From Nocardioides anomalus (GTDB lineage Bacteria > Actinomycetota > Actinomycetes > Propionibacteriales > Nocardioidaceae), in contig NZ_CP049257.1 in the NCBI RefSeq assembly GCF_011046535.1, forward strand, positions 1,178,001-1,242,000: a stretch of DNA of 64,000 bases, in the 5' to 3' direction. Position numbers and translations under genes: made by a program. Below the pieces are notes generated by a model. That model searched no databases. It was not told the DNA's origin and was given only the letters and a program-made list of their open reading frames with translations. Below are positions 2,470-24,805 of this stretch, one piece after another (the first letter of the stretch is position 1; every line of letters begins with the position of its first letter).

Positions 2470-3622
2470 GTGACCGAGATCAACCTGGGGATGCCCGCGG
2501 CCCCGCCGCCGGTGCTCGCACCGCGCCGCAAGACCCGCCAGATCCAGGTGGGCAAGGTGGGGGTCGGCAGCGACCACCCGATCTCGGTGCAGTCGATGAC
2601 GACCACCCTGACCTCGGACGTCAACGCCACCCTCCAGCAGATCGCCGAGCTCACCGCGACGGGCTGCGACATCGTCCGCGTCGCCTGCCCCTCGCAGGAC
2701 GACGCCGACGCGCTCCCCGAGATCGCCCGGCACTCGCAGATCCCGGTCATCGCCGACATCCACTTCCAGCCGAAGTACGTCTTCGCGGCCATCGAGGCCG
2801 GCTGCGCCGCCGTCCGCGTGAACCCGGGCAACATCCGCAAGTTCGACGACCAGGTCAAGGAGATCGCCGCGGCCGCCAAGGACCACGGCACCTCCATCCG
2901 CATCGGCGTGAACGCCGGATCGCTCGACAAGCGGATCCTCGACAAGTACGGCAAGGCCACCCCCGAGGCCCTCGTGGAGTCCGCCGTCTGGGAGGCCGGC
3001 CTGTTCGAGGAGCACGACTTCCACGACTTCAAGATCTCGGTCAAGCACAACGACCCCGTCGTGATGGTCCGCGCCTACGAGCTCCTCGCCGAGGCCGGTG
3101 ACTGGCCGCTCCACCTCGGCGTGACCGAGGCCGGCCCGGCGTTCCAGGGCACCATCAAGTCCGCCACCGCCTTCGGTGCCCTGCTCAGCAAGGGCATCGG
3201 CGACACCATCCGCGTCAGCCTCTCCGCGCCTCCCGTCGAGGAGGTCAAGGTCGGCATCCAGATCCTGCAGAGCCTCAACCTGCGCCCCCGCAAGCTCGAG
3301 ATCGTCTCCTGCCCCTCCTGCGGCCGCGCCCAGGTCGACGTCTACACCCTCGCCGAGCGCGTCACCGCCGGCCTCGAGGGCATGGAGGTCCCCCCTCCGC
3401 GTCGCGGTCATGGGCTGCGTCGTCAACGGCCCCGGCGAGGCCCGCGAGGCCGACCTCGGCGTCGCCTCCGGCAACGGCAAGGGCCAGATCTTCGTCCGCG
3501 GCGAGGTCATCAAGACCGTCCCCGAGTCCGAGATCGTCGAGACCCTCATCGAAGAGGCCATGCGCATCGCCGAGGGCATGGAGACCGTCGACGGCGCGGC
3601 GGCCTCGGTCACCGTCGGCTGA
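2470..3622 (+). CDS. ispG: 4-hydroxy-3-methylbut-2-enyl diphosphate synthase (flavodoxin type), frameshifted near the 3' end
   Basis: [4Fe-4S] enzyme of the MEP pathway converting MEcPP to HMBPP. The first frame gives [14 protein letters not shown] through LEGMEVP. The continuation ([16 protein letters not shown] to the stop at 3620-3622) lies in another frame. The switch coincides with a run of six C at 3390-3395 where five would keep the frame. Removing one C restores a 383-residue protein of normal length. Cluster cysteines are C281 and C284 (SCPSCG) before the shift and C316 ([10 protein letters not shown]) after it, so the unshifted product would lack a ligand. The enzyme is normally essential when the MEP pathway is the only route, so a sequencing indel is likelier than loss. 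GTG 2470 is chosen because the N-terminus resembles actinobacterial IspG. Confidence 0.9.
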
Positions 3623-3652
3623 TCCACCTCCCGGCCTCGTTCCTCGGCCTCC

Positions 3653-3667
3653 GGCGGCTCAGCCGCC
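3653..3667. terminator. GC-rich hairpin after ispG
   Basis: Perfect 7-bp arms ggcggct and agccgcc around one C, 31 bases after the ispG stop and inside the larger inverted repeat. This is a plausible intrinsic terminator for ispG. There is no U tract, as is common in GC-rich actinobacteria. Confidence 0.5.
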
Positions 3668-3742
3668 GCTGACCGAGCCGGCCGCGCCGTCGACGGTCTC
3701 CATGCCCTCGGCGATGCGCATGGCCTCTTCGATGAGGGTCTC
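3659..3742 (-). pseudogene. ispG C-terminal fragment (27 codons plus stop), inverted copy
   Basis: Read on the minus strand, this stretch encodes the last 27 residues of IspG with an in-frame TGA ([19 protein letters not shown], then AAGSVSGG). The intact gene ends AAASVTVG. The substitutions near the end and the preserved stop suggest a separate, slightly diverged ispG allele rather than a fresh copy. No IspG homology continues beyond 3742, so it is a remnant without function of its own. Confidence 0.75.
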
Positions 3743-3775
3743 CGCGGCCCCGGACGCACGGGACGGTCGAGCCGC

Positions 3776-4774
3776 TCAGCCGTCCCGCTGGTCGCGCTGG
3801 AGCCGGTTGCGTCGGTCCTCCTCGCGCTTGGAGTAGGCGGCCGCGCGGACGGCCTCGTCCGACTCCAGGCCGGAGCCGAGGCCGCCGCCCACCGTCGCGG
3901 CGGAGGCGACGAACCACGAGAGCACGAAGAGGTCTGGGTAGCTGTAGCCCGCCTGCAGGTAGTCGCCCATGATGGCGGGGTCGAGGATGAACAGCGCCCA
4001 CGCCAGGTTCACCACGTACAGCGCCACGTAGCAGAGGGTGACGCCGGTGACCAGGGTCAACACTGTGGACGCGTTGTAGAGCCGGGAACGCTGGCGCGAT
4101 CGCGTGGAGTCGCTGTCGGGGCGGTCCCACAGCTCGGCGTCGACGATGAGCCAGACGACCACCAGGGCGATCGAGGCCACCGTGGCCACCACCAGGCGCC
4201 ACCAGGACAGGGAGCCGGCCAGGAGCCAGACGGTGGAGTTGATGGTCGCGACCGCGCCCGTCGCTAGCGCGGCGACCAGCGCCGACTTGAGGCCGGGCAC
4301 CAGCAGCCACGGCCGGTTGGCCAGGACCATGCCGAGGAGCAGCCGCCAGCTCCCACCGGCCTGGGGCAGCCGCACGCGCCCCTCGCGGTGGGCGTCGTGG
4401 TCGGCCATCCCGCTCACCAGCGTGTGGACCGCCCGGCGCGCCCTGGCGTTCCTGCGCACGGGGCCGAGCGCGGGGAGGGAGAGCACCGCGACGCGTTCCT
4501 CCGGGTCGCTCTCGACGAGCACGTGACCACCGTCGGGGTCGTGGAGCGGGAGTTCGGTCAACCCGACCACGAGGTCCCACTCCCGTTCCCTCCGGTCGTC
4601 GCGCAGCCGGTCCGCGGCGGCCCACACGTCCTCGGAGCCGGTGGTGAAGGGCTTGCTCACGACCGTGATGTCCCAGGTCTGGTCTTCGTCGCCCGAGGTC
4701 AGGTCGGCGAGCCGGCGCGCCACCTCGGTGGGTGCCGCGGGGTCCGCCACGAGCCCGACGCGGAGAGCAACCAT
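3776..4774 (-). CDS. Membrane protein of unknown function with soluble N-terminal domain
   Basis: A 332-residue protein. Residues 1-140 form a soluble alpha/beta-looking domain (start VALRVGLVADP, with WDLVVGLTELPL at about 66-78). About four hydrophobic segments follow at roughly 158-187, 192-212, 236-263 and 280-302. The tail is charged and arginine-rich (KREEDRRNRLQRDQRDG) and presumably cytoplasmic. I do not recognise the family. Similar actinobacterial proteins are sometimes named as methylene-tetrahydrofolate dehydrogenases, which the sequence does not support. It converges on ispG and is divergent from the dehydrogenase operon starting at 4931. It is the first gene of the accessory segment. 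Confidence 0.8.
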   Translation of the reverse strand: MVALRVGLVADPAAPTEVARRLADLTSGDEDQTWDITVVSKPFTTGSEDVWAAADRLRDDRREREWDLVVGLTELPLHDPDGGHVLVESDPEERVAVLSLPALGPVRRNARARRAVHTLVSGMADHDAHREGRVRLPQAGGSWRLLLGMVLANRPWLLVPGLKSALVAALATGAVATINSTVWLLAGSLSWWRLVVATVASIALVVVWLIVDAELWDRPDSDSTRSRQRSRLYNASTVLTLVTGVTLCYVALYVVNLAWALFILDPAIMGDYLQAGYSYPDLFVLSWFVASAATVGGGLGSGLESDEAVRAAAYSKREEDRRNRLQRDQRDG

Positions 4775-4930
4775 GTGCTGCGAGTACCCGAGGCGCCCCC
4801 ACCGACACGGTGCGTGGCCACCCGGTCGCACACGTGGGCAGATCTGCCGATACCGGCCGCCCGCGACCGCTCCTTGAATGGAGTTGCCCCGCCCACCGGG
4901 AGGCGAGGACCCCACGACGGAGGAGACACG

Positions 4931-23659: not shown

Positions 23660-24442
23660 GTGAGGTTGAACCACGTAAGGCGAGGGAGCGGCAGCCCGCT
23701 GCTACTCGTGCACGGCCTGGGCGCTGGGTGGCGGTCCTGGGCCCCGATCCTCGATGAGCTGGCCGAGCACCACGAGGTGATCGCCGTCGACCTGCCGGGG
23801 TTCGGAGAAACGCCGCCGTTGACCGGCGAGGTCTCGATCGCCACCCTGACGGACTCCGTCGCGGACTTCATCCGCGACGAGGGTCTGGACGGGGTCTCGA
23901 CCGTCGGCCAGTCGATGGGCGGTCGGATCGTGCTCGAGCTCGCGCGGCGGGGCGTCGGCGGCGACACTGTGGCGTTGGACCCGGGCGGCTTCTGGAGTGA
24001 CCGTGAGCTCGTCGTCTTCGGCGCCACCCTCCGACCGTCGATCGCTCTGGTCCGGGCGCTGCGCGGCATGCTGCCAGCCCTGCTCGGCAGTGCTGCGGGA
24101 CGGACTCTCCTTCTCGCACAGCTCTCGGCGCGCCCATGGGCGCTTACGCGCGAGACCGTTCTGCCGGACGTCCGCGGGCTGGCCGACTCCCCATCGACCG
24201 GCGCTGCCTTGGACGCTCTGACCAAAGGGCCCAAGCAACAGGGAGCCCCGGCAGGCACAGCCCCCGGGCGGGTGACGATCGGTTGGGGTCGTCGTGACCT
24301 GGTGACGGTGCCGAGACAGGCCACGCGTGCCACGGAGCTGTTCCCCGACGCTGTCCTGCACTGGTTCGAGCGGTGCGGTCACTTTCCACAGTGGGATGCC
24401 CCGATCGAAGCGACCCAGCTGATCCTCAACAGCACTGCCTGA
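23660..24442 (+). CDS. Alpha/beta hydrolase
   Basis: 260 residues. The oxyanion region LLLVHGLGAGWRSW and the nucleophile elbow TVGQSMGGRIVL give Ser as nucleophile. The acid is likely Asp in GWGRRDLVTVP, and the histidine is in ERCGHFPQWDAP, so the triad looks complete. Fits esterases, C-C hydrolases or lactonases of small molecules. GTG 23660 is directly adjacent to the preceding stop. A stem-loop follows 54 bases after the stop. It is the last intact gene of the accessory segment. Confidence 0.88.
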   Translation: MRLNHVRRGSGSPLLLVHGLGAGWRSWAPILDELAEHHEVIAVDLPGFGETPPLTGEVSIATLTDSVADFIRDEGLDGVSTVGQSMGGRIVLELARRGVGGDTVALDPGGFWSDRELVVFGATLRPSIALVRALRGMLPALLGSAAGRTLLLAQLSARPWALTRETVLPDVRGLADSPSTGAALDALTKGPKQQGAPAGTAPGRVTIGWGRRDLVTVPRQATRATELFPDAVLHWFERCGHFPQWDAPIEATQLILNSTA

Positions 24443-24496
24443 GGTCCGTTGCTCTCTCCGGCGGTCCGGACGCGTCCGCTGAGCGGCGGAGTGACG

Positions 24497-24546
24497 CAGC
24501 AGGCTTGCGTCCGGATCTCGGTCGATCCGGACAGGCGACGCTGCTG
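24497..24546 (+). terminator. Stem-loop after the alpha/beta hydrolase
   Basis: Inner perfect arms gtccggatc (24509-24517) and gatccggac (24524-24532) with a 6-base loop, extended by outer arms cagcag (24497-24502) and ctgctg (24541-24546). A good rho-independent-like terminator without a U run. Confidence 0.6.
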
Positions 24547-24625
24547 AAACCTCACTGTCGGTCGCCACGATCCCCAGACCGCGGACCAAGGGATCGTCCC
24601 GGGCTGTCACGACCCGACTCGCCGG

Positions 24626-24693
24626 GCGAGGTCAGCGCCGGGAACGCGTCCAGGTCGGCCACACCCAGAGGGCGGACGCCGTGACGCGTGGTG
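24626..24693 (-). pseudogene. GNAT gene 5' fragment, inverted copy
   Basis: On the minus strand this reads TRHGVRPLGVADLDAF and PALTS, the same peptide as the start of the acetyltransferase at 24733 with one residue changed (L to P). It lacks the GTG start and loses homology after 23 codons. With the matching segment 24738-24805 it forms a 68-bp inverted repeat. Confidence 0.7.
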
Positions 24694-24805
24694 TGGGCAG
24701 GGGGAGCCGCGACGAAGTCGTAGGCTCACGCCGTGCTCACCACGCGTCACGGCGTCCGCCCTCTGGGTGTGGCCGACCTGGACGCGTTCTTGGCGCTGAC
24801 CTCGC
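24626..24805. repeat. Inverted repeat: fold-back copy of the GNAT gene 5' end
   Basis: Arms 24626-24693 and 24738-24805 match at 66 of 68 positions; the only difference is cc against tt. The spacer is 44 bases and contains the acetyltransferase start region. It mirrors the repeat after ispG and marks the right edge of the 21-kb accessory segment. Confidence 0.9.

Follow-up and report, generated by a model that had tools for sequence, protein, structure and literature searches.

Inverted copies of flanking gene ends border a 21-kb accessory segment in Nocardioides anomalus and recur through its genome

The window analysed here is a 64-kb stretch (bases 1178001-1242000) of the 5,120,341-base, single-contig genome of Nocardioides anomalus. 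It contains a 21-kb accessory segment located between a gene that we take to be ispG (gcpE) and a gene encoding a GNAT acetyltransferase. At each edge of the segment, the end of the adjoining gene is repeated as an inverted copy, so that the 3′-end of ispG is mirrored on the left and the 5′-end of the GNAT gene on the right (Table 1). The left arms are 84 bp in length, with 80 identical positions and a loop of 36 nt, and a gapped alignment of the two reaches 3514-3628 / 3653-3768 with 87.9% identity over 116 columns. The right arms are 68 bp in length (66 identical positions; loop of 44 nt), and their gapped extension, to 24723-24820 in the GNAT gene, has 85.3% identity over 102 columns. The two arm pairs, whose lengths agree with those given in an initial annotation of this DNA, are the two longest inverted repeats in the window among those with arms no more than 400 bp apart. 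The best named matches of the GNAT protein are from N. halotolerans DSM 19273 and N. flavescens YIM 123512 (both 86%, in a search that may omit the genome itself). The reading frame of ispG is broken in a run of C residues near 3391-3396, so that the open frame covering the C-terminal part is 165 aa long, compared with more than 380 aa in most of the relatives listed. This interrupted gene is the only ispG match in the genome, whereas relatives hold intact copies, and the break may be either a consensus error or a real frameshift.

The ispG–GNAT junction is a genus-wide insertion site, since 53 of 132 tabulated junctions hold at least 150 bp between the two genes. For this survey, 214 genomes of the genus were searched and 136 were tabulated, of which 132 (that of N. 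anomalus included) carry both genes on one contig and strand. In 79 of the 131 relatives, fewer than 150 bp separate the two genes, while the other 52 have spacers of 150 bp or more; the range extends to 21 kb, the largest insert being that of N. anomalus itself (21.1 kb) and the next 7.75 kb. This comparison bears out the initial description of a segment separating two otherwise adjoining genes. With conserved flanking genes and variable content between them, the junction has the make-up of an insertion hotspot. Sequences were retrieved for 80 junctions of relatives, namely the full set of 52 with inserts and 28 of the 79 with closely spaced genes, and each spacer was scored against the reverse complements of the final 250 bp of ispG and the initial 250 bp of the GNAT gene. 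Sixty-one junctions with spacers of at least 60 nt were scorable, the remaining 19 spacers being too short for a copy. The inverted-copy scores in N. anomalus are 158 for the ispG end and 132 for the GNAT start, and the best scores in the 61 scorable junctions of relatives are 36 and 53 (with the ispG stop misplaced by the script in G027, G031 and G033), so the arms are not a product of chance. Mirrored ends are absent from the inserts at the 52 insert-bearing junctions. In keeping with the initial annotation, no inverted copies were found in strains lacking the island, in that none of the 61 scorable junctions, all of them from other species, contains them. In one relative, the GNAT gene is found in two overlapping pieces (G138:C1:3117328-3118169), its frame being interrupted.

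Mirrored gene ends are also found elsewhere in the N. anomalus genome. The inverted-repeat scan accepted ungapped arms of at least 40 bp with at least 85% identity and a loop of at most 150 nt; the same settings were used throughout, and being ungapped the scan would miss gap-rich arms. Forty roughly evenly spaced 20-kb stretches (800 kb in total) contain nine such repeats (in L166, L169, L171, L172, L174, L178, L181, L210, and L218), six of them at the 3′-ends of protein genes. The window contains four, and 20 further stretches (392 kb; 14 picked beside known matches or the window) another four, which gives 17 in the 1.256 Mb of own-genome DNA scanned, window included. No inverted repeat was detected in 400 kb from five relatives, nor in 1.459 Mb covering 80 named loci that surround the GNAT gene (most from Nocardioides, together with some unplaced metagenome genomes and a single Pimelobacter), once matches to N runs in one record had been dropped. 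These two control sets amount to 1.86 Mb, with most genomes sampled over about 20 kb each, and nine repeats in 800 kb against none in 1.86 Mb corresponds to a binomial P of about 2e-5. Loci picked for other reasons likewise yielded none in 476 kb and none in 321 kb. When arms of at least 30 bp were admitted, 19 repeats were found in 864 kb of the genome and three in the 400 kb of relatives; with arms of at least 36 nt, at least 80% identity and loops of at most 100 nt, settings comparable to the weaker mirror beside the cytochrome b gene described below, the counts were 14 in the 800-kb sample and zero in the 400 kb.

Five of the 17 repeats are copies of one dispersed stem-loop repeat, one is a palindrome and the other 11 are unique, which corresponds to about 9-10 unique fold-backs per Mb. 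The unique fold-backs are located at the 3′-ends of protein genes (8/11), at the 3′-end of a tRNA gene, at the 5′-end of the GNAT gene and in a spacer (one each), and the loops of those other than the ispG and GNAT pairs span 4-135 nt. All 11 differ from each other in sequence and hence do not form a dispersed repeat family of the repetitive extragenic palindrome (REP) or miniature inverted-repeat transposable element (MITE) type.

A second segment with mirrored gene ends at both edges is found beside a cytochrome b gene. Here, 7.1 kb (L171:5767-12891) separates two conserved blocks that are 0.7-2.1 kb apart in all six relatives compared (6/6), and the extra DNA is either an insertion or a replacement. 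A mirror of the 3′-end of the cytochrome b gene marks one edge (L171:12709-12903, 87%). The opposite edge carries a weaker one, of the 3′-end of a conserved L,D-transpeptidase-type gene (5706-5758 / 5811-5863), with 41/53 identical positions and a core of 38 nt at 82%. An assignment of L171:12837-14603 to ctaD was rejected, as Pfam gives cytochrome b. The initial annotation described the pattern at a single site, whereas mirrored gene ends recur through the genome and this second segment is two-sided as well. Two further fold-backs are accompanied by extra DNA. The L172 spacer is about 650 bp in length, compared with 43 bp in N. halotolerans and 114 and 130 bp in two others, and consists of the copy and 467 bp of extra DNA. 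The L169 spacer, about 300-330 bp against 55-148 bp in four relatives, holds the copy and 144 bp of extra DNA. Downstream of tuf, no motif resembling that of the gene which is presumably rpsJ was found within 39 kb, and one is present nearby in 5/29 of the relatives' tuf loci, so that gene order is uninformative there. Of nine tuf-downstream sequences from relatives, eight are unmatched in the sampled stretches of the genome and the ninth matches elsewhere.

Amplification and library chimeras are often inverted, and chimeric fold-back reads carried into the consensus could in principle produce such a pattern. The broken ispG frame lies in a homopolymer, where a consensus error is possible, and the pattern is seen in one genome only. 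However, the arms differ by 2-15%, mostly through substitutions and in the gapped extensions as well, they are located at gene ends, and at four loci the comparison with relatives reveals extra DNA beyond the copies. An assembly or library artefact is therefore an improbable source of the fold-backs.

The mismatches between copy and gene bear on where the copies came from. Two models had been offered in the initial annotation. In one, a circular molecule carrying a diverged ispG–GNAT junction integrated through a single crossover, and the insert was later inverted; in the other, the two ends of a break folded back and copied themselves. The former would explain both arm pairs by one event plus an inversion, and was preferred on account of the divergence between the arms. 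The copies are, however, nearer to the genome's own genes than these genes are to those of N. halotolerans, the nearest sequenced relative. The copy matches its own gene at 80/84 positions for ispG, 66/68 for GNAT and 63/64 for L169, compared with 73/84, 54/64 and 56/64 between the own gene and that of N. halotolerans. For L172 the edge is slight (87% over 123 against 104/123), and the cytochrome b end aligns with N. halotolerans over too short a length for comparison. Coding mismatches in seven fold-backs are distributed over codon positions one to three as 26, 40 and 33 (33/99 at third positions). The ispG and GNAT copies have 5/19 of their coding mismatches at third positions, while their orthologues have 1598/2841 (77/80 relatives each, mutually non-independent; nominal Fisher P = 0.01); when all seven fold-backs are compared with the same orthologue counts, the nominal P is 8e-6. 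The allele of another strain would be expected to differ mainly at third codon positions, and the mismatches are thus not of the allelic kind. Since there is no third-position excess and the copies are closer to the own gene, a diverged donor allele is disfavoured and ends that snapped back on themselves are favoured, which speaks for the second of the two models rather than the first. The circle would also leave the other fold-backs in the genome unexplained, and near-mode searches found no plasmid record with 80% coverage of the island (the best reaches 6%) and no phage record that matches it. Integration of such a circle is accordingly highly improbable. The copies look like duplicates of this chromosome's own DNA ends that have since decayed as non-coding DNA.

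The longest exact cores of the ispG (62), GNAT (52), and L169 (59) arms exceed what is obtained from shuffled mismatches (P <= 0.0004), and those of the cytochrome b and thiolase arms are borderline. Long exact cores would also be expected if the copies were kept by selection because they form terminators of great strength, or stem-loops at mRNA 3′-ends, and so shield genes from newly arrived neighbours. The predicted RNA folding energies of seven fold-backs, from -114 to -282 kcal/mol in a calculation made without a shuffle control, and the location of eight of the 11 unique copies at the 3′-ends of protein genes are consistent with such a role. Selection of this kind does not explain how the copies originated, the GNAT copy lies upstream of the GNAT start, and beyond the cores the mismatches are distributed as they would be in DNA free of constraint. 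We consider selected regulatory hairpins very unlikely to account for the pattern.

The cargo of the segment comprises 16 plausible genes, rather than the approximately 18 accessory genes counted initially. Parts of 4620-24619 match elsewhere in 78/213 other genomes of the genus (E <= 1e-60). The block 4931..9029 is found at other places in G190, G019, G203, and G206, 22931-24529 matches G086:C2 at 92% identity, and parts of 3787-16536 appear in varying order in G206, G165, G080, G188, and others (15 loci read). The similarity to relatives ends at 3787-3818 on the left and at 24529 at the latest on the right, in both cases just inside the arms. Judging by these matches, the cargo appears to be a composite of accessory DNA from the genus. 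In line with the initial description, Pfam finds no integrase or recombinase domain in the island open reading frames (ORFs) scanned. No direct repeat of at least 25 bp joins the two island edges, and the segment, lacking both features, does not conform to an integrase-driven island. No tRNA or other known RNA was found in the 64-kb window, the island edges included.

Table 1. Genes and fold-backs of the ispG–GNAT segment (window coordinates) and unique fold-backs elsewhere in the genome.
Feature	Position	Strand	Basis or location
ispG (gcpE)	2470..3622	+	Translation; C-terminal part matched in 211/214 genus genomes; last 84 bp form the left gene arm
Left fold-back, gene arm (ispG 3′-end)	3539..3622	+	Inverted-repeat scan
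Left fold-back, inverted copy of ispG 3′-end	3659..3742	-	Weaker similarity across 3653-3768
First island gene, no Pfam match	3776..4774	-	Similar DNA at other loci in relatives starts at 3787-3818
Zinc-dependent alcohol-dehydrogenase-type genes (two)	4931-6079, 7129-8304	+	Pfam
DUF1345 gene	8271-9029	+	Pfam
HTH_18 regulator	9010-9390	-	Pfam
GAF-ANTAR regulator	10079-10780	-	Pfam
LuxR-type regulator	10805-12040	-	Pfam
MEDS-LuxR regulator	12166-13032	+	Pfam
Glycogen-debranching-type enzyme	13111-15378	+	Pfam; similar DNA in relatives
Glycosyltransferase	15427-16791	-	Pfam; similar DNA in relatives
GH43 / F5-F8 type C protein	16862..19390	-	Pfam
ROK family protein	19802..20992	+	Pfam
Inosine-uridine nucleoside hydrolase type	20793..22289	-	Pfam; start uncertain
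Methyltransferase-type protein	22210..23307	-	Pfam
SnoaL-like protein and alpha/beta hydrolase	23054..24442	+	Pfam
Right fold-back, inverted copy of GNAT 5′-end	24626..24693	-	Inverted-repeat scan
Right fold-back, gene arm (GNAT 5′-end)	24738..24805	+	Inverted-repeat scan
GNAT acetyltransferase	24733..25578	+	Pfam: DUF4081 and acetyltransferase domains
ispG fold-back	Window left edge		Gene 3′-end
tuf fold-back	L166		Gene 3′-end
SpoIIE-type gene fold-back	L169		Gene 3′-end
Cytochrome b gene fold-back	L171		Gene 3′-end
DUF4192 gene fold-back	L172		Gene 3′-end
Thiolase fold-back	L174		Gene 3′-end
LuxR-type gene fold-back	L181		Gene 3′-end
UvrD-type helicase fold-back	L311, continuing in L181		Gene 3′-end
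tRNA-Ala fold-back	L218		3′-end
Kynureninase fold-back	L210		Spacer after gene, overlapping its last 10 bases

The dispersed stem-loop repeat is about 170-185 bp in length, with arms of 46-55 bp and a 74-nt loop, and is found at 54905-55076 in the window and at L178:17383-17566, L307:999-1182, L309:16913-17096, and L314:7936-8113. Two loopless, near-perfect palindromes in the window (39320-39427 and 55167-55250) share most of their sequence and apparently belong to a repeat family. Repetitive DNA occupies L166:17077-18426, 3′ of tuf and its fold-back, and is followed by an ABC transporter ATPase. A reading of L181 as two convergent LuxR genes was rejected; the right-hand side is a long LuxR-type frame that ends in the loop, and the left-hand side is only a 50-codon frame, so that L181 counts as one gene end with its copy.

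The fold-backs have two features of fold-back inverted duplications, namely an inverted copy adjoining its source across a short spacer and derived from the chromosome itself. A break or stalled replication fork in the spacer between two genes would be the first step in their formation. The 3′ end would then fold back, in some cases where a small hairpin (a terminator, for example) is present, and copy roughly 50-150 bp of the strand to which it belongs. At the ispG–GNAT and cytochrome b loci, both spacer ends would fold back, and other DNA would be placed between the two, either at once or shortly afterwards. The inverted copies, being non-coding, would subsequently decay, except that further hairpin template switching would keep, or make, parts of the arms identical. 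The fold-back of break ends as a step, and the homogenisation of arms, are inferred, and we regard a single event of break, two fold-backs and capture as an evenly balanced proposition. The centres of symmetry fall in spacers or at stop codons. In four of ten fold-backs (tuf, L169, cytochrome b, and tRNA), a stem of 9-19 bp lies no more than 3 nt from the centre. In an exact-centre version (many tests, uncorrected), the result is strong for cytochrome b; GNAT, tuf, L172, thiolase, and kynureninase give weak positives, and ispG, L169, tRNA, and the UvrD-type gene score negative.

Several observations weigh against break-end fold-back coupled to capture. No significant central stem is found in the other six of the ten fold-backs (ispG, GNAT, L172, thiolase, kynureninase, and the UvrD-type gene). 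Exact cores are not significant in tuf, L172, and the UvrD-type gene, and because the scan itself selects exact cores, the test for mosaic arms is biased and lends weak support to homogenisation. The weaker of the two mirrors beside the cytochrome b segment (L171:5706-5863) came from a relaxed search targeted at 1.6 kb at that edge. In the extra DNA of L169 and L172, no score for a mirror of the far neighbour is clearly above shuffles. Persistence of the palindromes through loss of SbcD is not supported, since SbcD is present, with a match above the family cut-off in a 413-aa open frame (SbcC was not searched for). The interrupted ispG frame shows that the consensus may contain errors, but such errors would not easily yield arms with 2-15% divergence located at gene ends. 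The coupling of copying to insertion, and thus their coincidence in time, is inferred from the assembly of one genome.

The same observations can be read to mean that fold-backs and insertions are independent events. The 52 relatives with inserts at this junction lack fold-backs, so DNA enters the junction by another route and the mirrors are dispensable. Extra DNA beside fold-backs is established at the four compared loci only (ispG–GNAT, L169, L171, and L172); the fold-backs at tuf, thiolase, kynureninase, tRNA, LuxR, and the UvrD-type gene lie at gene ends without a shown insertion. Some fold-backs are, moreover, centred on strong hairpins. On the other hand, all four edges of the two extra segments are mirrored in a genome with only about 9-10 unique fold-backs per Mb, a coincidence that is unlikely unless such edges are especially prone to folding back, and this argument is limited by the weakness of one of the four edges (41/53). 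Independence of the two is thus somewhat unlikely, and fold-back of both break ends with capture between them continues to be the reading we follow.

Fold-back inversions in yeast and humans are alike in that a hairpin at a DNA end primes copying and gives rise to an inverted duplication around a short loop, as far as the abstracts of these studies describe them (PMC7467729; PMC10622511; PMC3907307). They are gross eukaryotic rearrangements, whereas the copies here are tens to about 150 bp in length, bacterial, recurrent and, at two loci, present on either side of extra DNA. Template-switch mutations, according to the abstracts, resemble them in the making of reverse-complement copies by replication and in the homogenisation of arms (PMC8794818; PMC8604942; PMC7202029), but affect RNA genes or short imperfect inverted repeats rather than the ends of protein genes with extra DNA joined to them. 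The palindrome-induced inverted duplication of Escherichia coli, controlled by SbcCD and RecA, is likewise bacterial and hairpin-dependent in its published summary (PMC3315005), but is centred on the palindrome under study; SbcD is present in the Nocardioides genome. The coding palindromes of Nematomorpha mitochondria are also numerous long inverted repeats that overlap genes in one lineage, yet their abstract places them inside mitochondrial coding genes and not at the gene ends or insertion edges of a bacterial chromosome (PMC6649704).

Many bacterial insertion hotspots lack an integrase, and the explanation in print for such horizontal gene transfer hotspots is recombination at the flanking core genes (PMC5635113). 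The ispG–GNAT junction is alike in its variable inserts between conserved genes and in an island without an integrase found, and recombination at the flanking genes is the likeliest explanation for the relatives' inserts. It differs in its mirrored edges, which are particular to this genome among those examined. Among the titles and opening lines of abstracts listed in a literature search, none described a bacterial genome with islands capped by inverted ends of the flanking genes. What is new here is where the fold-backs lie: at each of two loci they flank a stretch of extra DNA on both sides, and the genome as a whole holds many of them.

To our knowledge, fold-back synthesis is otherwise known mainly from yeast mutants and tumours. 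We tentatively propose, as a possibility falling short of a probable one, that bacteria may gain genes without an integrase or long homology when a break opens a spacer, each of its ends snaps back to copy itself, and foreign DNA caught between the two becomes an island capped by mirror images of the flanking genes. The process would have been repeatedly active in this Nocardioides lineage. If this is true, mirrored edges would be a readable scar of a route other than recombination at flanking genes, namely break-end fold-back with capture, that could be counted in any genome. The mirrored ends also make this strain a naturally occurring example in which fold-back synthesis is frequent.

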